NCBI GenBank assembly: GCA_030611585.1
Contig: JAUWPM010000004.1
Span: 1 to 50,923 of the forward strand
Source of the DNA: Methanosarcinales archaeon
GTDB taxonomy: Archaea; Halobacteriota; Syntropharchaeia; Alkanophagales; Methanospirareceae
Reading direction: 5' to 3'
DNA length: 50,923 nucleotides
The position numbers and the translations under genes are program-made. Positions 10,229-44,144 of the stretch are shown here, in pieces. Below the pieces are notes generated by a model. That model ran no database searches and was not told the DNA's origin. It was given only the letters and a program-made list of their open reading frames with translations. Each line of letters opens with the position of its first letter. Positions within the stretch are counted from its first letter, which is position 1.

Positions 10229-13200
10229 CTAACGTCTAACAATTTCAATCTCTTCTTTCGTCAGTCCATAGAGTTCATAAACCATCGCATCAATCTCGCT
10301 ATCTGTTTTATCAATCTCGTTCTTCAAGGCAATGATTTTTTGCCGGTAATCTTCAAAGTACTGCTTTATTTCACCGGTTTGTTTCGGTGAAAGGTTCTTA
10401 TTCTCTTTGGGCAGTTTCTTTTTGAGTTCTGCGAAAAACGCTTCTTCGTCCAGCTCATAAAAAGATTCTAACTTTTTTGATTGCTTTTCTAACCCGTATT
10501 GAATTTTGAGCCAGTCTAAATACTCGTTTTGTGTCTGGTGGAATTGCTTATTTAAATATAGCATTCGGTCGGCTTTTTCTATAAAGGGTTGTTGGGCGTC
10601 TAATGAAATAATCTTTATTGGTATTGCATCAAGATTTTGCTTTGTTACAGTAATGGTATAAGTTGCATCCATCGAAAATTTTTTACGATAGTAATAATTA
10701 ATAAGTTTAGAATTAAGTAGGCACAACACAAATTTTAAATTGGACTTATTATTTTTTAGGATAAGGTTATTTAGTGAGTTAAATGTATAATATTTTTCAT
10801 TATCATAAGTACAAATTAACTTCGATGAAACTCTTTGAATCAATATTTTTTTTGATAAAAATGTTTCTTCTTTCCTTGGTCTGTGTAACACATCTCTGTC
10901 ATAATTGATATAATTGCCACTCCAATTGAAGCCATATCTATGAATGTCCGGGGCTTCTAATAGCTTTTTATATTTTTCAGTTAATCTCGATTTTGATATG
11001 TAACGTTTCTTATCTGCTTTTGTTGCAATACCGTTAAGTACATCCACAATTTTGGCTAATTCTATTTGGTCAGTTTCCAACTTATTAAATAAAGTTTTAT
11101 CCGCTTCATCAATTTTATAAATAAATCTTGTTTCTGGATTAGCTTGAAACTCACATTGCTTAACAATATAGGTTTTAGAATCGTTTTCTTTTATCTGATT
11201 GAATATCACATTATTATTTCTATCAAAATGATTGTTAATAATTATGGTAACAGTTTCCGCTGTAACGTTTTCAAAAACTCCAATACCATAAATATTTATT
11301 TCTTTAATGTTATAATTTTTATAAAGATATTCTCTAATTGCGGAATAGGTGCTTGTTCTAATAAACGTTTCAGGTGTTATATATCCTAAAAAAGCATTTT
11401 TACTTAGTAATTTACTTAAGGATAACTCTAAAAAAACACTGTATAGATTAATCTTACCTTTATTATACCGGTATTTTTCCCAAATATAGTCCTTTATATT
11501 ATTGATATATGAAGAACCTCTTGTAAATACATACGGCGGATTCCCAATCACCACATCAAACTTAAACGGAAATTCTTTTTCCCACTCAAACGCTTTAGGA
11601 TCAATAGATATATCATCAATAAGCGAATTCCCGCATTTAATATTCTCATCCAGAGCGGTAAGTTCTTTATGCTTGCTGGCTGTTTTGAGCCAAAGCGAAA
11701 GTTTGGTAATCTCCACCGATTCAGAATTTAAATCAACACCATAAAGATTGTTACTCAAAATGTTTTTATCCACATCAACCAAACTATGCGTGCCTCGTTT
11801 CAGCTTTGCTATTTCTTTATTTACTTGTTGCCCTTCTCTGTACAAATAGTCAAACGCTTGATTTAAAAACGCTCCGGAACCACAAGCAGGGTCGAGAACT
11901 TTTATAGTTTCTAATCTTCTTCTGTACGCATCCCAAAAATCTAAATGTCGTTTTATATTACCGTTGTAGGCTCTCTTTTTAACTTTTACCGATTCATAAT
12001 CCTTTCCGATTAGTTCAGGTAAGTCGTAAAATCCCAGTTCCTTTTTCTGGTCTTCCAGCCAGCCACCGATGGCTTCCTCCACAATATAGTGGGTGATATA
12101 TTCAGGCGTATAATAAATCCCTTCTTTTTTGCGCTTACCATTTTTCTTATCAAGGCGTTCGCCATTGATTTCCGCTTTAATCTCCTCTAAATCGGAAATG
12201 GACTGCTCAAAAATATGCCCTAAAATATTAACGTTTAAATCGGTGTCAAAATCATAATCCGTAATCTTTGCCAGCTCTTCAAAAACCGCATCATTGAGTT
12301 TGAGTGTGTCAAGTTCATCATCGGGTGCAAAAAGCCCACCATTGAATTTGTTGATGTCGTGTTCCGGTTTCCCGTCGTTAATAGCTTTAAAAAGCGCCTG
12401 GATAAAAGTCCAATTTTTATCTTCCAGTTCTATAATAGCGTTTCTTGCCTGTTCTAAAGTACCCCTAAAAATCCTTGTCGGTAGCAAACCCTTATCCTCA
12501 CAGAAACAAACGAAAATAAAACGGTCTAAAATCTTCTGCGTCTTTTCCAGTAAGAGCATTTCGTCTTTTTCGGGATTGTTCTTCTTCAGATGTTCAAAAA
12601 GATAGTTTCGTGCTGCTTTGTATTCTCCATAGAATTTATGAGATATCTTCTCCTCTTCCTCTGTGTTGCTCCGATAAAGTTTTTCAATCTCACTTTCACC
12701 GTCTTTAGCAATCAGATTCTCTTTAGAGAGCAAATAATAAAACTTTTTGAACGTTTCCGGTTCTAAGAGTTTTTCGATTGAAAACACTTCGTATTCATCC
12801 TGGGTTGAACGATGATAAAGTCGTAGTTCTTTAAAATTGGAAACAATAACCCATTTACAGGTCTTTCCTACTTCTGGAGCGTACCCAAAAGCCTGCTGAA
12901 CTGGAGTTCGTTTATCATTCCTGCGGTGTTGGGGTGAATCTAAATCAGTATTAGCATCTTTGAGTTCAATCACCGCCCGTATGTCTTCTTGCTCGTTTGA
13001 GAAATACCCTAATGCCCCATCTGCTCGGTTGGTGGTAACTTTCATCTTTTGCTGGGGAATCATATTCCACGCTTCCGATCCACCAATCACGCCCTGGTAA
13101 CCCAACACACTCACGAAAAAGTCATCCAAAAATTTCTGGTCAATGGAAGTCTCTTTAATATTGTCCAACTTCCCGCTTTGAAGAGATTGAATCCATTTCG

Positions 13201-13306
13201 ATATAATTTCCTGTTTTTCTTTTAGATTTGGGACAGAAGAAGCTCCGATTCGGATCAGGACTCTGTTAAGCGTTTTTTGATTGAAAATATGTTTTTGGTA
13301 CTTCAT
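10229..13306 (-). CDS. Type IIG restriction-modification enzyme (Eco57I-like, m6A methyltransferase)
   Basis: N-terminal PD-(D/E)XK-like RADGALGYF..AVIELK; VLDPACGSGAFL; FDVVIGNPPY; C-terminal specificity region. Confidence 0.88.
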   Translation of the reverse strand: MKYQKHIFNQKTLNRVLIRIGASSVPNLKEKQEIISKWIQSLQSGKLDNIKETSIDQKFLDDFFVSVLGYQGVIGGSEAWNMIPQQKMKVTTNRADGALGYFSNEQEDIRAVIELKDANTDLDSPQHRRNDKRTPVQQAFGYAPEVGKTCKWVIVSNFKELRLYHRSTQDEYEVFSIEKLLEPETFKKFYYLLSKENLIAKDGESEIEKLYRSNTEEEEKISHKFYGEYKAARNYLFEHLKKNNPEKDEMLLLEKTQKILDRFIFVCFCEDKGLLPTRIFRGTLEQARNAIIELEDKNWTFIQALFKAINDGKPEHDINKFNGGLFAPDDELDTLKLNDAVFEELAKITDYDFDTDLNVNILGHIFEQSISDLEEIKAEINGERLDKKNGKRKKEGIYYTPEYITHYIVEEAIGGWLEDQKKELGFYDLPELIGKDYESVKVKKRAYNGNIKRHLDFWDAYRRRLETIKVLDPACGSGAFLNQAFDYLYREGQQVNKEIAKLKRGTHSLVDVDKNILSNNLYGVDLNSESVEITKLSLWLKTASKHKELTALDENIKCGNSLIDDISIDPKAFEWEKEFPFKFDVVIGNPPYVFTRGSSYINNIKDYIWEKYRYNKGKINLYSVFLELSLSKLLSKNAFLGYITPETFIRTSTYSAIREYLYKNYNIKEINIYGIGVFENVTAETVTIIINNHFDRNNNVIFNQIKENDSKTYIVKQCEFQANPETRFIYKIDEADKTLFNKLETDQIELAKIVDVLNGIATKADKKRYISKSRLTEKYKKLLEAPDIHRYGFNWSGNYINYDRDVLHRPRKEETFLSKKILIQRVSSKLICTYDNEKYYTFNSLNNLILKNNKSNLKFVLCLLNSKLINYYYRKKFSMDATYTITVTKQNLDAIPIKIISLDAQQPFIEKADRMLYLNKQFHQTQNEYLDWLKIQYGLEKQSKKLESFYELDEEAFFAELKKKLPKENKNLSPKQTGEIKQYFEDYRQKIIALKNEIDKTDSEIDAMVYELYGLTKEEIEIVRR

Positions 13307-36069: not shown

Positions 36070-39000
36070 ATGATTATGACGGATGAAACAAAGCATTCGG
36101 TAAAAATGAATCCTGCAAATATCGTTAATAGCCTAATAAAGGATATTAGGGAACGTTTGACGTTAGACGGTAAGAACAGGGTTTTTAACGAAGGGGAGAA
36201 ACTCCACTCTGAGTTTATGAAGGATAGAGCGGAGGCAGAAGCATTTACGCGGGAATTCCTGATTGACAAAATTTTCGATGTGCTGGAGCTGGAGAAACTG
36301 CCAGAAAAATCTTTCTATACCCCTGGTAGTCATCGAAGCGTAGATTACCGGATTAAAAGCAAAAGAGGTAGATTCTTGGTTGAAGCGAAGCCGTTGAATG
36401 CAGATTTAGAGAAGGGTAAAGATAGTGCCGTTAACCAAATAAAAGGCTTGTTTAGACTTGCGGAAGTGAAAGAGAACTATGATTTTGGTGTGGCAACAGA
36501 TGGATTGAGATGGATATTCATTGACAGAAACGAAGAAATAGTGAGCGATTGGAGATTAGAAGAGCAGTTTGACCAGATAAAGGAGTTCCTGGTTGGTAAA
36601 GAGAAAGTTGTCTCGCCTAAGACGGAAGAGGAGATAAGCAAGAAGTTTTACGGCTGGTATAATGCGCTTTTGCACGGTGGCAAGTACAGGGATCACGAGA
36701 ACAAGCAGAAGACGATTTCTGAAGCTGATTGTTTAGTCAACACCGTCATTGGCGTGCGTGATTTGGAAGAGCGGGAGCAGATAGCTCAGGTAGTGATGAA
36801 CCGGCTGATATTCATCAAGTTCTTACAATCCAAAGGCATTATCGGGGAAGATGTGCTCGAATATCTATCTGAAGTGAAAGAGGATGAACTCACACCCAAA
36901 TTGCGGCAGTTGTTTTTCGGTGTTCTGAATACGCCAGAGGATCAACGACAGGATATTAATGAACGGTTCAAAGATATCCCATACTTGAATGGGAGTTTGT
37001 TTACTCATATTGAAGTCGAAAAGAGAAATTTGGATTACAAAGTAAAAGCGGAGATTCTGAAGAAGGTAATAGAGTTTTTAGACAGTTTCAAGTTCGTGCA
37101 TAAGGAGCAGCTTGGTAACGGTGATTCCATAGACCCGGAAATACTGGGCTATATCTTTGAACGTGCAATGACCACCACGGACCGAAAGGGAACCGGTGCG
37201 TATTACACGCCCAAACCGATAACAAAATATATCTCGGAGAATACGATCTACCCGTACATAATAGACAAAACAAATCAAATTCTTAAGACTGAGAAGGGCT
37301 ACAGGGAGACAGAACTGATAAAAGACATTGAAGAGTTGTTTATTCTGCCGGCAACGACCTTGAAAGAGATTTGGGACAAGATAATTCAGAAAATAAGAGT
37401 TCTGGATAACGCATGTGGTTCCGGTGCGTTCTTGCTTGCTGCGGCGAACATCCTGTTTGCGTTGAACAGGAAGATAAGTGACAAATTAGGAGCAGAGAAT
37501 CCAGATACTACTTTGAAGATGTGGATCTTAGTCAATAACCTCTACGGGGTTGACATAAATCCGAACGGCATAGAGATAGCAAAGCTGAGGCTCTGGCTGT
37601 GGCTTGCCGACTCTTACGAGCCGGGGTACATAAAACCATTGCCAAATATTGATTACAACCTCCGGGTGGGGAACAGTCTGATCGGCTACGTGGACCTGAG
37701 CGAGTTCAAGGAAACGAAACTCAACCTCTCGGATTTTCTTTGGAATGAAGAAAAAGACACGCTGGATAACCTACTCAAAGAGAGGAATGACTTAATCCGC
37801 GAGTATAAAATAACCTGGGGTGAAGAAGCAAAGGATTTAAAAAGTAAAGTACACGAGTTCGACGAGAAGATAAGTAATCTGCTGAATGCCGAGCTTTACA
37901 AGAAACTGAGAGAGAAGAAGATAACGATAAGCAAGGAAGCGTTTTTGAAATTAAAGCCATTTCATTGGGGATTTGAGTTTTATGAAGTCTTTGATTTGGA
38001 GAAGCCGAAAGAAGGACGGGGGTTTGACGTGGTTATTGGGAATCCGCCATATGTGAGACAGGAAAAAATAAAAGAGGAAAAGCCAATATTTGAAAAGTTG
38101 TATCCAGAAGTTTATACAGGTATTGCAGATCTCTGTGTCTATTTTGTTAAGAGGAGTTTAGATTTAGCAAAATCAGGATGCTATCATTCTTTTATTATTA
38201 CAAATAAATGGATACGGGCAGGATATGGCGAAAAATTAAGGAAATATCTGACAGAAAGTATAAGCATTAATGAAATTGTAGATTTTAACGGTATCCGAGT
38301 TTTTGTGGGTGCAACGGTCGATGTTTTAGTGTACAAATTTAAAAATGCCCTTCCTGAAGAGAATGATTTAAGATATTGTGCGTATAAAGATACCTCTCTA
38401 TTACATATTGAGAAAAATATTGAGACGGACGGTTTTGATATTGAACAGGAAACACTAAAACAAGGATGGAGTTTTTATCCAAAAGAGGTTTTAGAAATTA
38501 AGAAGAGGATTGAAGAAGTCGGAAAACCGTTAAAAGAATGGGATGTTAAAATTAACTACGGAATCAAAACGGGTTTTAACGAGGCTTTTATAATTACGGA
38601 AGGAAAAAAAGATGAGTTAATAAAAAAAGATCCCAAAAGTGCAGAAATAATAAAACCCATTTTAAGAGGCAGAGATATTAGAAGATATGGCATTGATTGG
38701 AAAAATTTATACATTATTTTTGCAAGACAAGGAGCTAATATAGATAACTATCCAACAATCAAGCAGCATTTATTTAAATTCAGAGAAAGATTAGACCCCC
38801 GACCAAAAGATTTTACCGGAAAGTGGAAAGGTAGAAAACTTGGCCCTTATAAATGGTATGAAATTCAAGACAATATCGCATATTATGAAGAATTTGAAAA
38901 AAACAAAATTGTTTGGCCTATGGTTTCATCAAATTCTTCAATGTTTTGTTTGGCTCAAGAGGGAGTTTATCTTAATAATAAATGTTATCTTATAACAGGA

Positions 39001-39489
39001 AATAATATAAAATACGTTCTGAGTATTCTTAATTCAAAAGTTGCTTGGTGGTTTTTTAATACCCGAGAGGCTAAATTAGGTTCTAAAGGTTTAGAGATCA
39101 GAAAGGAGGGTGTAGCCTCTTTCCCGTTACCAAAAATACCGCAAAATCAAACCCCTTTCATTAACCTCTGCAACTACATGCTGTTCCTGAACGAAAAAGA
39201 AGAACTAAGAAAATCCGAAAAGGAACTTATTGAATTCATTGATAAGCAGATTATTGATTCCTTAGTTTACGAACTCTACTTCAGAGAAAAATTTGAAGAG
39301 GAAGGTTTGAAAACGAATCTTGTTGGACTTGTTGAGCCTTATTTGAGGGATATTGGAAATTTTAAAACCAAAGAAGAGAAGTTGGAAGCGATAAAAGAAG
39401 TTGTTGCGAAGATCAAGAGTGACAAGGGAGTCAAGAAGGAGATAGAGAAGATAAAAAGTCATAAGTGGGTGAAGGTCATAGAAGGTTGA
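36070..39489 (+). CDS. Type IIG restriction-modification enzyme (second copy, distinct)
   Basis: PD-(D/E)XK-like VDYRIKSKRGRFLVEAK; VLDNACGSGAFLLAAANI; FDVVIGNPPYVRQEKI; TaqI-like specificity C-terminus. Confidence 0.9.
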   Translation: MIMTDETKHSVKMNPANIVNSLIKDIRERLTLDGKNRVFNEGEKLHSEFMKDRAEAEAFTREFLIDKIFDVLELEKLPEKSFYTPGSHRSVDYRIKSKRGRFLVEAKPLNADLEKGKDSAVNQIKGLFRLAEVKENYDFGVATDGLRWIFIDRNEEIVSDWRLEEQFDQIKEFLVGKEKVVSPKTEEEISKKFYGWYNALLHGGKYRDHENKQKTISEADCLVNTVIGVRDLEEREQIAQVVMNRLIFIKFLQSKGIIGEDVLEYLSEVKEDELTPKLRQLFFGVLNTPEDQRQDINERFKDIPYLNGSLFTHIEVEKRNLDYKVKAEILKKVIEFLDSFKFVHKEQLGNGDSIDPEILGYIFERAMTTTDRKGTGAYYTPKPITKYISENTIYPYIIDKTNQILKTEKGYRETELIKDIEELFILPATTLKEIWDKIIQKIRVLDNACGSGAFLLAAANILFALNRKISDKLGAENPDTTLKMWILVNNLYGVDINPNGIEIAKLRLWLWLADSYEPGYIKPLPNIDYNLRVGNSLIGYVDLSEFKETKLNLSDFLWNEEKDTLDNLLKERNDLIREYKITWGEEAKDLKSKVHEFDEKISNLLNAELYKKLREKKITISKEAFLKLKPFHWGFEFYEVFDLEKPKEGRGFDVVIGNPPYVRQEKIKEEKPIFEKLYPEVYTGIADLCVYFVKRSLDLAKSGCYHSFIITNKWIRAGYGEKLRKYLTESISINEIVDFNGIRVFVGATVDVLVYKFKNALPEENDLRYCAYKDTSLLHIEKNIETDGFDIEQETLKQGWSFYPKEVLEIKKRIEEVGKPLKEWDVKINYGIKTGFNEAFIITEGKKDELIKKDPKSAEIIKPILRGRDIRRYGIDWKNLYIIFARQGANIDNYPTIKQHLFKFRERLDPRPKDFTGKWKGRKLGPYKWYEIQDNIAYYEEFEKNKIVWPMVSSNSSMFCLAQEGVYLNNKCYLITGNNIKYVLSILNSKVAWWFFNTREAKLGSKGLEIRKEGVASFPLPKIPQNQTPFINLCNYMLFLNEKEELRKSEKELIEFIDKQIIDSLVYELYFREKFEEEGLKTNLVGLVEPYLRDIGNFKTKEEKLEAIKEVVAKIKSDKGVKKEIEKIKSHKWVKVIEG

Positions 39490-39492
39490 GAG

Positions 39493-40494
39493 ATGGAAAC
39501 GCAAAACACACGGAGAAGACATAAAATAGGGGGCATCAGTATATTTACGAACGAATATGAATTGTTAGATGGTTCAAAACAACGATTGGTTCAACAAGTA
39601 GCAGATGGTTCAATTATAAAACGATTTGAGAAAACTCCGGTGCCTATTAAACCAACGGATGTTGTATGCCCCCATTTTCTCGAGTTGAAGTGGGCTTATG
39701 GCTGTCCCTTTAATTGTGCATGGTGCTATTTGAAAGGCACATTTAGATTTCTCGAAACAAAGACAAAACCAGTCTTTAAAGATAGAGAAAAGGTTAGATT
39801 GCATACAGAGACGCTTTTCGATACAGCGCAATATCCAAAAGAAATTCTTAATACCGGTGAGCTTGCTGATTCTCTTATGGACGAAAATGGAAAAAATCCT
39901 TTTTCAAAATTTATAATCCCTCTGTTTGAAAAACAAGATAGACACAAAGTTTTGTTTTTGACAAAATCTGATAAGGTAAAACATCTATTAGAGATAGAGA
40001 TACATAAACAGGCAATAATAAGTTTCAGTTTGAACACACGGGAAAACGCTGAAAGGTGGGAGATAGGGGCTCCACAAGTTATAAAGCGAATTGAAGCAGC
40101 AAAGGCAGTCTCAGATGCAGGCTATGAAACGAGGATAAGAATAGATCCCATGATTCCATTTCCAGAATCGAAATGGGAAGGAGATTATAAAGAACTTATT
40201 GACCAGATATTCTCAAAATTCAGACCGGAAAGAATAACAATAGGCTCGCTTAGAGGTTTGCAGAGCACCATTAATGGTGCAACTGATAGATCATGGGTAG
40301 ATTTTTTCGGAGAAAAATCAAACTGGGGTAAGAAAATAAAAGGGAATCTCCGATATACTATGTACACTACTGTGGTAAACTATCTCAAGGAAAACTATAA
40401 TTATACCAACGTTGCGTTATGTAAAGAAACAAAGACAATGTGGGAATCATTAGGGATGGATTATATAAAGATTAAATGTAATTGTATATGGTAA
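39493..40494 (+). CDS. SPL-like radical SAM protein (three-Cys-motif partner of TcmP)
   Basis: CX3CX2C in WAYGCPFNCAWCYLKGTF; KVLFLTKSD; ISFSLNT; RIRIDPMIPF. Confidence 0.82.
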   Translation: METQNTRRRHKIGGISIFTNEYELLDGSKQRLVQQVADGSIIKRFEKTPVPIKPTDVVCPHFLELKWAYGCPFNCAWCYLKGTFRFLETKTKPVFKDREKVRLHTETLFDTAQYPKEILNTGELADSLMDENGKNPFSKFIIPLFEKQDRHKVLFLTKSDKVKHLLEIEIHKQAIISFSLNTRENAERWEIGAPQVIKRIEAAKAVSDAGYETRIRIDPMIPFPESKWEGDYKELIDQIFSKFRPERITIGSLRGLQSTINGATDRSWVDFFGEKSNWGKKIKGNLRYTMYTTVVNYLKENYNYTNVALCKETKTMWESLGMDYIKIKCNCIW

Positions 40495-41594
40495 AAATGC
40501 CACTACCAGATGATTCGTGGGAAAAGTGGAAGTATAAAGAGCATACAAAAGCAAAGCATGAGATACTGAGTAAGTATCTTGGTGGATGGATTAAAATACT
40601 AGGTAAATCCCACGATTTAAATATTTTTGATTGTTTTGCTGGACGTGGAAGATTTTCAGAGGGGGAAGAAGGTTCGCCCCTTGTTATAATTAAAACTATA
40701 GCAGAGATTCGAGAAAAAATGGGACGGCAGAAAGAGGCAAGTTGCATCTTTATTGAAATAAACGATAGCAATTTTCAAAACCTTCGAGTAGAAATAGACA
40801 AAGAAATAAAAAACTCATCTCAAAGATATGATGGTTGGTTGAATGTTGAATTTCATTGTGATGAATTCGCAAATGTAGCCAGCGGAATCATAGATGAATA
40901 TAGTGAAAGGCTCGCTCCTTCATTCTTTTTTATCGATCCATTTGGCTTTAGTGGTGTTCCATTTGAGGTAATTAAAGACATCCTTTCAATTAAAAGAACT
41001 GAAGTGTTTATGACCTTTATGGTTCGCGATGTTAATAGATTTTTTAAAAGTTCAAAGCATAGAATTAGTATTGAAGAGCTATACGGTATGGATAATGTTC
41101 AGGATGTATTACAAAATCAATATCCCAATTTACCAAGAGAACAAGCTTTGCTGAGATTATACAGAGATCAGCTCCACGAAAGTGCTAATGTAAAATATAC
41201 CCTTCCATTTAAAGTAACCGCAGATGAGAGATTGCAAACTACTTACTACCTCATTCACGCCACCAATCATCCAATGGGATGTGAGTTGATGAAAGAGATA
41301 ATGTATAAAGCAGGAACAGAAGGAAGATTTGGATATTTCGGTCCTGCTAAAGGGCAGTTAACATTAACACAAATCTCAGGAATACCAAAACTTAAAGAAT
41401 TTCTATTAAATCGATTTGAAGGAAGAACACTTTCTTATCGAGACATAAGATATGAAACGCTCATGGATACAGAATTTATCAAACAACATTATCGCAAAGC
41501 ATTATTGGAATTAGAAGAGGAAGGGAAAATTCAAATTGCCGGAAAGGGTCCGAAAGGGGGGTTACCCGATAAAGCTCAAGTTACTTTCCTTTAA
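40488..41594 (+). CDS. tcmP: Three-Cys-motif partner protein TcmP-like
   Basis: DDSWEKWKYKEHTKAKHEILSKYLGGWIKILG; IFDCFAGRGRF; FFFIDPFGFSGVPFEVI; overlaps upstream radical SAM gene. Confidence 0.82.
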   Translation: MVKMPLPDDSWEKWKYKEHTKAKHEILSKYLGGWIKILGKSHDLNIFDCFAGRGRFSEGEEGSPLVIIKTIAEIREKMGRQKEASCIFIEINDSNFQNLRVEIDKEIKNSSQRYDGWLNVEFHCDEFANVASGIIDEYSERLAPSFFFIDPFGFSGVPFEVIKDILSIKRTEVFMTFMVRDVNRFFKSSKHRISIEELYGMDNVQDVLQNQYPNLPREQALLRLYRDQLHESANVKYTLPFKVTADERLQTTYYLIHATNHPMGCELMKEIMYKAGTEGRFGYFGPAKGQLTLTQISGIPKLKEFLLNRFEGRTLSYRDIRYETLMDTEFIKQHYRKALLELEEEGKIQIAGKGPKGGLPDKAQVTFL

Positions 41595-41645
41595 TATCTA
41601 TTCAAAGGAAGAACTCGAAATGAAAGCGATGAAAGGTGAATAAAA

Positions 41646-43031
41646 ATGCCCAACAAAAACACCAGAATGGAAGAATCACAGCAGATAGAATTCAAGAAAT
41701 CATTAGCAGAAAGGAAAGGAATTCTTGAAACAATTTCAGCATTCGCGAATTCTAATGGCGGGAAGATTTTTGTTGGAATAGAAGAGAACAAAGACGGTTC
41801 CGTAAAGGAAATAGTTGGAATTAGAATCAAGGGAAAAGAAATTGAGAACCTGAGTAATGAGATCAAGCAGAATACAGACCCTGTGATTTATCCCTCTATT
41901 GAGGTAAAGGAAATTGAAGGGAAATCCGTTCTGGTTGTTGAGGTAAAAGAAAGCCAGGTAAAGCCGGTATTTGCCAAGATAGATAAACTCCCTGTGGTGT
42001 TCAAGAGGGTCGGAAAGACGAATCAGAAGGCAGATGTGAATGAACTGAGGCGAATTATCTCCGATGGGAAGGAATTTCTGTGGGATTCTCAGATATGCGA
42101 GGAAGCGAGTTTAGATGATATTGATTGGGAGAAGCTTAGATGGGCCTTGAGGAAGGCAAAGACAGAGAGGAACTTGGATATTGATTTAGAGATTCCCGTA
42201 AAAGAGGCGTTAGAGAAATTAAACCTGATAAAGAATGGAAAATTGACGAATGCTGCCATTTTAGTGTTTGGAAAAGAGCCACAGAAATTCTTCTTGCAAG
42301 GAGAGGTGAGGTGTGCCAAATTTAAAGGTACCAGGGCAGTCAAACCCTTTATTGATATGAAAGTCATTCCGGGGTCCAGTTATGAGCAAATTGATGATGC
42401 GGAAAAATTCGTTTTGAATAACATCCGGAAGGCAGCGTGGACCGTTTCCGGTCAGGTGGAAAGGGAAGAGAGATGGGAATATCCACCGGATGCAATAAGG
42501 GAAGCAATTACTAATGCGGTGGCTCATAGGGATTATTCTTCTACAGCAAATGTCCATGTTTCAATCTTTGACGACCGAGTGGAGGTATGGAATCCCGGGA
42601 AGTTGCCGGAACCATTAACACCAGAAGACCTGAAGAAAGAGCACAAGTCAATTCCAATTAACCCATTAATTGCACATGCACTATTTCTGATAAAATACAT
42701 CGAGAGATGGGGAACTGGAACGAATGATATTATAAGATATTGTGCGGACTCCGGATTACCAGAACCTATCTTCAAAGAAGATGCTGGCGGGTTTGCGGTT
42801 GTACTTAGAAAATCTAAGATTCCTGAGTTATCTGAGTTAGACCTAAACGAAAGACAAAAGAAAGCCATCGAATACCTCAAGGAACACGATAGGATCACGA
42901 ATAGAGAATATCAGATTCTATGTCCTATAGTTACGAGAGAGACCCTGAGGAAGGATTTGAGTGATTTAGTAACTAAGAAAATTATAGTTAAAAGAGGTGT
43001 TAAAAGAGGTGTTTTTTATGAGTTTATATAA
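41646..43031 (+). CDS. AlbA_2/Schlafen-like plus HATPase_c_4 putative regulator
   Basis: QQIEFKKSLAERKGILETISAFANSNGGKIFVGIEE; YPPDAIREAITNAVAHRDYS; ERWGTGTNDIIRYC; C-terminal HTH. Confidence 0.88.
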   Translation: MPNKNTRMEESQQIEFKKSLAERKGILETISAFANSNGGKIFVGIEENKDGSVKEIVGIRIKGKEIENLSNEIKQNTDPVIYPSIEVKEIEGKSVLVVEVKESQVKPVFAKIDKLPVVFKRVGKTNQKADVNELRRIISDGKEFLWDSQICEEASLDDIDWEKLRWALRKAKTERNLDIDLEIPVKEALEKLNLIKNGKLTNAAILVFGKEPQKFFLQGEVRCAKFKGTRAVKPFIDMKVIPGSSYEQIDDAEKFVLNNIRKAAWTVSGQVEREERWEYPPDAIREAITNAVAHRDYSSTANVHVSIFDDRVEVWNPGKLPEPLTPEDLKKEHKSIPINPLIAHALFLIKYIERWGTGTNDIIRYCADSGLPEPIFKEDAGGFAVVLRKSKIPELSELDLNERQKKAIEYLKEHDRITNREYQILCPIVTRETLRKDLSDLVTKKIIVKRGVKRGVFYEFI

Positions 43032-43088: not shown

Positions 43089-44144
43089 ATGGGAGGGGAA
43101 ATAAAAATGTTCAACCCAAATTTCGGCTACACGAGTAAAATAGTGAGGCTGCTCACTAGCATATCAGCATCGCGAGAGATAATTCTCAATTCGCCCATGA
43201 TTCCGAAATGGGAAGTTCACTTAAGGCACGAAGCCATGATCCACAGTGCCCATTCCTCTACGAGTATCGAGGGGAACAGGTTATCTTTAGACCAGGTAAG
43301 CGATTTAGCCTTTGGACGAGAAGTAATGGCAACTCGTAAGGACAAGCAGGAAGTTTTGAATTATCTCAAGGTACTGGAGAATCTTGACAAATTAACCGAA
43401 GGCGACAAAATTACCGAGCAGGGCATACTGAACACCCATCGAATGCTAACCGCAGAAACATTGGAAAACGCTTCTGATTGCGGAGCTTATCGAACTCGCT
43501 ACGTTGTAGTTGGGAACAGGCTAACGGGCGAGATTATTTTCCGACCACCGGAGAATGAAGAAGTGCCAAGATTGGTTAAAGAGCTAGTTGAATGGTTAAA
43601 TTCCGAGGAAGCCAAAGAACTTGACACTATTATCGCGGCGGGCGTGGCACACTATGAATTTGTCAGAATACACCCCTTTGTCGACGGAAATGGGCGAACC
43701 GCAAGGGTTCTTGCAACACTAATACTTTATCTACGCGGGTTTGACACTAAACAGTTCTTCTGCATTGATGACTACTACGATTCTGATAGACCGGCGTATT
43801 ACAGAGCGTTACAAAGCGTCAATCAAAAAACTCTGGACGTGACCAAGTGGCTGGAATATTTCGCTGAAGGCGTAGCAGTAAGCATTGATGCGGTAAAGGA
43901 AAGGGTAGTAAGGCTCAGTAGCGAGCGATTAAGAAAAGCAAAAAGAGGGCAGATTGCTTTAACTGAGCGACAGATGCAGGTTGTGGAGTTTATCAATACC
44001 GCAGGCAAAATCACCAGTGGGGACATTCAAAAAATGTTCGAAATATCCAGGCAAGCAGCCCATAAAGAGATTACGAAGTTACTGGAGTTAGATATCATCG
44101 AACAAAAGGGCGCTGGGAGAACTACCCACTACATCATGAAGTAG
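43089..44144 (+). CDS. Fic-domain protein with N-terminal inhibitory motif and C-terminal winged HTH
   Basis: HPFVDGNGRTAR; inhibitory-helix-like STSIEGN; C-terminal GDIQKMFEISRQAAHKEITKLLEL. Confidence 0.92.
   Translation: MGGEIKMFNPNFGYTSKIVRLLTSISASREIILNSPMIPKWEVHLRHEAMIHSAHSSTSIEGNRLSLDQVSDLAFGREVMATRKDKQEVLNYLKVLENLDKLTEGDKITEQGILNTHRMLTAETLENASDCGAYRTRYVVVGNRLTGEIIFRPPENEEVPRLVKELVEWLNSEEAKELDTIIAAGVAHYEFVRIHPFVDGNGRTARVLATLILYLRGFDTKQFFCIDDYYDSDRPAYYRALQSVNQKTLDVTKWLEYFAEGVAVSIDAVKERVVRLSSERLRKAKRGQIALTERQMQVVEFINTAGKITSGDIQKMFEISRQAAHKEITKLLELDIIEQKGAGRTTHYIMK

Follow-up and report, generated by a model that had tools for sequence, protein, structure and literature searches.

The association of TcmP with three-Cys radical-SAM (rSAM) proteins is already recognized: in NCBIfam, TcmP takes its name from its partnership with three-Cys-motif proteins, and PDC-M30 and PDC-M41, two phage-defense candidates in PADLOC, consist of TcmP and a Gp37/Gp68 (DUF5131) rSAM protein. 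Our literature search found PDC-M30 in surveys only, and no paper on the function of TcmP, DUF5131, or PDC-M41. Of the 32 P. aeruginosa strains with PDC-M30 in one survey, 68.8% were resistant, a genome correlation (PMC10855318); the candidate also appears in a second survey (PMC11878078). In S. meliloti, the TcmP gene SMa2243 is listed beside SMa2245 (Hna), a proven defense gene (PMC12445080). The S. meliloti locus recovered here (L188; pSymA, 1254220–1259881) has an arrangement consistent with that listing: an 845-aa gene occupies the position expected for the Hna helicase and lies together with a Gp37/Gp68-type rSAM gene and two copies of TcmP, the second of which is 78 bp from it and on the same strand.

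In the prophage lysogeny region of Gordonia temperate phages, TcmP follows the immunity repressor, and a convergent, unannotated neighbor of Gp37/Gp68 size and then the integrase come after it; the lysogeny region of a phage is a typical place for protection genes expressed during lysogeny. At four loci on Pseudomonas plasmids (L189–L192), the Gp37/Gp68–TcmP pair adjoins a site-specific recombinase, as if it were transposon cargo, and in L192 the neighboring DNA-binding protein is named Tn4652 cointegrate resolution protein T.

The window, i.e. the whole 50,923-nt stretch of Methanosarcinales archaeon DNA analyzed here, holds the same two genes as PDC-M30 and PDC-M41, namely TcmP (component A) and an adjacent three-Cys rSAM protein (Table 1). 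Whereas the PDC-M30B and PDC-M41B models match Gp37/Gp68 (DUF5131), the window partner resembles spore photoproduct lyase (SPL) and has four extra invariant Cys residues; it matches no PADLOC family at E ≤ 0.1, so that a different rSAM partner stands in place of PDC-M30 component B. Neither fusions nor allele exchange are described for PDC-M30 or PDC-M41 in the papers found. New here are the SPL-like partner variant and, as the surprising part, the exchange of TcmP beside a constant rSAM gene.

Table 1. Features of the rSAM–TcmP locus and its neighbors, in window coordinates.
Feature	Coordinates	Strand	Evidence or remark
Type IIG (Eco57I/TaqI_C) restriction-modification gene	36070..39489	+	Context; recurrent, not obligatory
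rSAM protein, SPL-like subfamily, 333 aa; constant component	39493..40494	+	PF20903, TIGR04070
Extra invariant Cys, C59	39667..39669	+	51/52, one gapped
CX3CX2C cluster motif, C71/C75/C78	39703..39726	+	52/52 paired relatives
Glu123, aligned with catalytic Cys140 of SPL	39859..39861	+	Profile and pairwise alignment to 4fhg/4fhc; E in 52/52
Extra invariant Cys, C310 (ALCKET)	40420..40422	+	51/52, one gapped
C-terminal Cys-Asn-Cys, C329 and C331	40477..40485	+	Both Cys in 51/52, one gapped
Exchanged segment relative to ANME-1 GoMg2 (L084); TcmP replaced, flanks conserved	40493..41580	+	blastn, breakpoint alignments
TcmP, class I methyltransferase-like, C-terminal winged helix; variable component	40497..41594	+	TIGR04474, PF22560, PADLOC PDC-M30A, fold
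TcmP motif I, DCFAGRG (predicted SAM-binding loop)	40629..40649	+	D48 51/52, G54 51/52
TcmP motif IV, DPFG (as in Trm1)	40935..40946	+	D150 52/52
GMT-like winged-helix domain of TcmP	41382..41540	+	PF22560 37.9 bits (GA 27)
AlbA_2/Schlafen protein with recG-C-like domain; context	41646..43031	+	Domain match
Fic protein (SoFic-like); context	43089..44144	+	Profile matches

The rSAM protein scores 54 bits against the SPL family PF20903 (GA 27) and 70.3 bits against TIGR04070, below the equivalog cut-off of 400, and its similarity to SPL is limited to about residues 66–245, with the N- and C-terminal regions unaligned. Its place in the radical SAM superfamily is given by the invariant CX3CX2C motif together with the partial TIM barrel modeled for a natural rSAM fusion (L102), a fold that matches SPL, SuiB, and anSME. 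When the L102 model was searched with Foldseek, the best solved match of the rSAM half was SPL (5e-11), and SuiB, anSME, and SkfB followed at 1e-6 to 1e-4. The window protein has the CX3CX2C core fold in common with SPL but departs from it in the unaligned termini, in the extra Cys residues, and at one position of the core: Cys140 of GtSPL (4fhc, FEAACTSD), the catalytic hydrogen donor, aligns with Glu123 in the rSAM motif NTGELADS, within a GtSPL alignment that spans residues 66–240. This Glu and the TIGR04070 score lead us to reject an assignment as an SPL repair enzyme. The four extra Cys (C59, C310, C329, and C331) are missing from two other aligned classes of rSAM partner. Radical SAM mobile pair proteins A and B (TIGR04470 and TIGR04471) are matched weakly by the partner rSAMs, far under the equivalog cut-offs.

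TcmP matches TIGR04474 with 192.5 bits (cut-off 53) over positions 1–261 of the 263 in the model, and the PADLOC model PDC-M30A (PDLC04567) with 149.9 bits over 14–352. Sequence search returned no solved structures for it. An AlphaFold2 model built with 47 homologues (pLDDT 90.8) retrieved class I methyltransferases in Foldseek, a BFVD fold search yielded generic methyltransferases only, and the Rossmann-like fold with motifs I and IV assigns the protein to the class I SAM methyltransferase fold. Seven residues (K23, D48, G54, G62, S63, L99, and D150) are retained in at least 51 of 52 alleles, and their retention across exchange suggests that TcmP alleles stay active. Over the winged-helix region the occupancy is 0.45–0.73, a large share of the paired TcmP alleles being short and without it.

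Among methyltransferases, the best Foldseek match of the fusion model was Trm1 (3axs, E 1e-6), the tRNA m2,2G26 methyltransferase. An hhalign comparison aligned motif I (DxxAGxG in both) and the DPFG of motif IV with a probability of 77% (E 2e-5), over 92 columns only; a smaller, 12-sequence TcmP profile gave 4%, and unrelated controls gave <1%. PF02005 (Trm1) did not appear in the Pfam scan of TcmP, nor was there a full-length profile match. On these alignments the link to Trm1 is moderate; it would be a remote one, TcmP having a different tail and the rSAM linkage.

The first-pass annotation of this DNA had described an SPL-like rSAM protein with a CNCIW ending, seen as an extra Cys pair, followed by a methyltransferase-like TcmP protein at 40488–41594, and the profile matches, folds, motifs, and conserved C-terminal cysteines above bear out that description. 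Its step from SPL likeness to a damage module is weakened, since an invariant Glu stands where SPL has its hydrogen-donor Cys140. The upstream reading frames are as it gave them, with the type IIG stop at 39489 and the rSAM ATG at 39493 separated by 3 nt. For the downstream junction it had placed the TcmP start within the end of the rSAM gene. The TcmP frame indeed has an ATG at 40488, where the last 7 nt of the rSAM gene begin, and another at 40497, 2 nt past the rSAM stop (366–369 aa depending on the start); the two nearest TcmP relatives begin at the residue equivalent to 40497 (MPLPDD...), and the overlap is therefore perhaps unused. From this alignment of starts we prefer 40497, with 40488 possible.

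Both composition and distribution point to acquired DNA. GC content is 0.355–0.38 in the stretch holding the pair against 0.446 in the left flank and 0.469 in the right, and an rSAM gene of the window type was absent from all seven congeners searched. The kinship of L049 and L084 places the genome in one family with ANME-1 GoMg2. In the congener that matches both flanks most closely (G235), the flanks lie on different contigs, and no empty site is definable. Elsewhere in the window, a second Eco57I/MmeI-type restriction-modification gene (10229–13306, minus strand; GC 0.347) lies amid housekeeping DNA of GC 0.45.

A survey of 84,980 species, each represented by a single genome, used the rSAM profile alone, blind to TcmP, and recovered 80 loci from ANME-1, Methanoperedens, Thermoplasmata, Asgard-related archaea, Chloroflexota, Zixibacteria, and WOR-3. 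TcmP was adjacent or fused at 57 of them: downstream on the same strand (24), upstream (11), convergent (11), or fused into a single chain with TcmP N-terminal to rSAM (11). Where the genes are separate, they typically overlap or lie a few to tens of nucleotides apart. Among the other loci, 12 have a contig end within 1.2 kb and 11 were scored as full flanks without TcmP; closer inspection showed that five loci have parts of TcmP at the contig end, that the TcmP of L124 is disrupted, and that L140 retains a remnant, which leaves about seven full-flank rSAM loci of the 80 with no trace of TcmP. A strong rSAM relative is present in 12 of 394 genomes of the phylum, and in ten of the 12 it has an adjacent TcmP. 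Such linkage across phyla, on both sides and both strands and as fusions, is more than chance.

The reciprocal view gives the same result, since none of the 36 archaeal TcmP loci examined is without a three-Cys protein, either next door or fused (Radical_SAM 32/36, DUF5131 20, SPL 14). This mix of partners, together with a fusion of TcmP to a different rSAM class that adjoins a type IIG gene (L058), means that TcmP partners with several rSAM classes in a many-to-many relation. A model of a natural fusion (A3) has confident domains (pLDDT 89) and no confident interface (pTM 0.63), and we accordingly claim no rSAM:TcmP interface.

Five loci (L105, L118, L138, L144, and L146) carry two tandem window-type rSAM paralogues that share a single TcmP. 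In L094 and L114, which lack an adjacent TcmP, the rSAM proteins are headed by FFKxKRPWSxIKD, which resembles the N-terminus of fusion L122 and is possibly a TcmP remnant or a docking peptide.

TcmP is replaced in place by unrelated alleles beside a near-constant rSAM gene. The exchanged alleles are 20–30% identical, compared with 80–95% for the accompanying rSAM genes, and the breakpoints lie at the gene ends. Across the 52 paired loci, partner similarity is weakly correlated (Mantel r 0.18, p 0.001); where rSAM proteins are at least 90% identical (12 locus pairs, non-independent), TcmP identity is below 35% in 10. Methanoperedens shows four TcmP allele types beside rSAM proteins that are 91–95% identical. 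In one comparison (L119 and L123), the upstream gene, rSAM, and two downstream genes are 78–89% identical in nucleotides and TcmP is 22% identical; homology breaks off 2 nt short of the rSAM stop-codon end and returns for the last 15 nt of TcmP.

The window itself takes part in this pattern. Against the ANME-1 GoMg2 locus (L084), blastn finds 81.8% identity up to 40492, nothing inside the exchanged segment, and 82.4% over 41581–41648, and the proteins are 82% (rSAM) and 29% (TcmP) identical; the left breakpoint again falls 2 nt short of the rSAM stop-codon end, and the right one precedes the end of the TcmP stop by 14 nt. Homology is also lost within 7 nt of the rSAM gene end in L131/L134 and L137/L141. 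Conversely, L134 and L136 have TcmP proteins that are 63% identical beside rSAM proteins that are 50% identical, and such related alleles beside divergent rSAMs argue for exchange rather than fast divergence alone. In a second rSAM class, proteins that are 70–78% identical are partnered by both long and short TcmP, and in the Pseudomonas transposons no exchange was seen (TcmP 78%, rSAM 91–94%).

Two further observations concern the upstream DNA. About 17 codons from the 3' end of the window's type IIG gene can be recognized before the GoMg2 rSAM gene (L084, 1–121), where the type IIG frame is closed shortly upstream, so that just a remnant is visible. L090, L091, and L092 are apparently one locus, with a common upstream gene and rSAM and a variable block between them that holds, respectively, a type IIG gene and TcmP, a different Eco57I-type gene and TcmP, or a TcmP–rSAM fusion alone.

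Obligate-like pairing, fusion, fold, conserved active-site residues, and in-situ allele exchange are all computed here. Beside them we set a tentative mechanism, held with somewhat less than even confidence, in which the two proteins would together modify nucleic acids as a module of genetic conflict, most likely of anti-virus defense, with TcmP as the exchangeable specificity component. SAM binding, nucleic acid as the substrate, the order of steps, and defense itself are parts that we infer, and target recognition by TcmP is suggested by its variability alone. The rSAM protein would be the constant catalytic component; TcmP would use its methyltransferase fold, helped in many alleles by the winged-helix tail, to bind both SAM and the target. 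Given its Trm1-like DPFG and winged helix, TcmP probably methylates the amino group of a base, and the rSAM partner would then act on that methyl group or base. Whole-allele exchange of TcmP, under viral selection, would alter the target or evade viral inhibitors.

Two known systems work in comparable ways. In wybutosine synthesis, the radical-SAM TYW1 step acts on the methyl group set by Trm5; Trm5 with TYW1/Taw1 offers an analogy only, that of a methyltransferase followed by a radical-SAM step, and TYW1 is of a different radical-SAM family. In type I restriction, HsdS specificity alleles are exchanged beside a constant enzyme, again an analogy of a constant enzyme with a swappable specificity gene for which we claim no homology, and TcmP carries catalytic motifs whereas HsdS does not. 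A more specific version, in which the constant SPL-like enzyme of an immune system, with its four extra invariant Cys, would carry out new radical chemistry on a nucleic-acid base and the swappable TcmP methyltransferase would pick the target, is in our judgment doubtful; if true, it would be specificity-swapping as in type I restriction but with radical chemistry, across archaea and many bacterial phyla.

The genomic surroundings were also considered. Eco57I-type genes flank 4 of the 57 paired survey loci, in addition to the window and L058. Relative to control genes farther off in the same loci, genes of restriction-modification type are mildly enriched near the pair (top type IIG model 4 vs 0 and mad2 model 6 vs 1, each of 108 genes, pair-flanking vs control). 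This minority linkage excludes the restriction-modification gene as an obligatory third component, and the first-pass annotation's inclusion of the type IIG gene in the module is weakened, although its frequency exceeds that of the control. The neighbors of window-type pairs are mostly ordinary metabolic genes, so island clustering is modest. A close homologue of the AlbA_2/Schlafen gene lies directly upstream of the pair in L086 (3465–4955), and AlbA and Fic homologues occur near the rSAM gene of L094. The defense context proposed by the same annotation is plausible in view of PDC-M30 and PDC-M41, the Gordonia lysogeny region, the Hna neighbor, and the low GC, and its two-enzyme pairing is supported as a conserved functional pair. 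It was right about the pair, the fold, and the Cys pair, and had missed the fusions, the PADLOC status, the many-to-many partners, and the exchange of TcmP.

Among other explanations, abortive infection survives best, and we consider it unlikely. Here, upon infection, the pair would modify host tRNA, rRNA, or a nucleotide and so halt growth, with TcmP as the variable sensor or target-binding part; the Trm1-like motif points to RNA, and the phage lysogeny-region location and the Fic and AlbA_2/Schlafen neighbors are in keeping with this. Against it, there is no toxin–antitoxin layout and no immunity gene, and the 11 single-chain fusions give no obvious off-switch.

Modification of a protein, as in RiPP pathways, appears improbable. 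The rSAM protein would act on a peptide or on TcmP itself, and TcmP would methylate the peptide; rSAM enzymes and methyltransferases are common together in RiPP clusters, the four extra invariant Cys could bind an auxiliary cluster, and SuiB, anSME, and SkfB are among the structural matches. SPL is nevertheless the better structural match, many TcmP alleles have a winged helix, and the short or overlapping junction between the genes leaves no room there for a precursor.

It is very improbable that assembly or binning errors created the exchange pattern, or that TcmP merely evolves fast beside a slow gene. The loci are mostly metagenome-assembled and TcmP outpaces rSAM in Pseudomonas, but the recurrence of breakpoints a few nucleotides from gene ends in several unrelated assemblies makes an assembly artefact unlikely, and the conservation of DNA on either side of the exchange in ANME-1 and Methanoperedens and the L134/L136 alleles also speak against this explanation. 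Least probable of all is DNA damage repair of the SPL type assisted by TcmP: among solved families SPL is the closest, yet the Glu at the catalytic position is invariant, the similarity is confined to the central region and far under the equivalog cut-off, allele exchange is unusual for repair, and a Gp37/Gp68 protein may just as well take the partner role beside TcmP.

TcmP and its three-Cys rSAM partners are spread over archaea, bacteria, plasmids, and temperate phages. For the reading that we favor, a nucleic-acid-directed module in genetic conflict, the fusions, the several rSAM partner classes, and the in-place TcmP swaps yield a testable hypothesis, namely that TcmP sets the target. If this is right, the pair would amount to an immune system that modifies its target by radical-SAM chemistry and can exchange its specificity.
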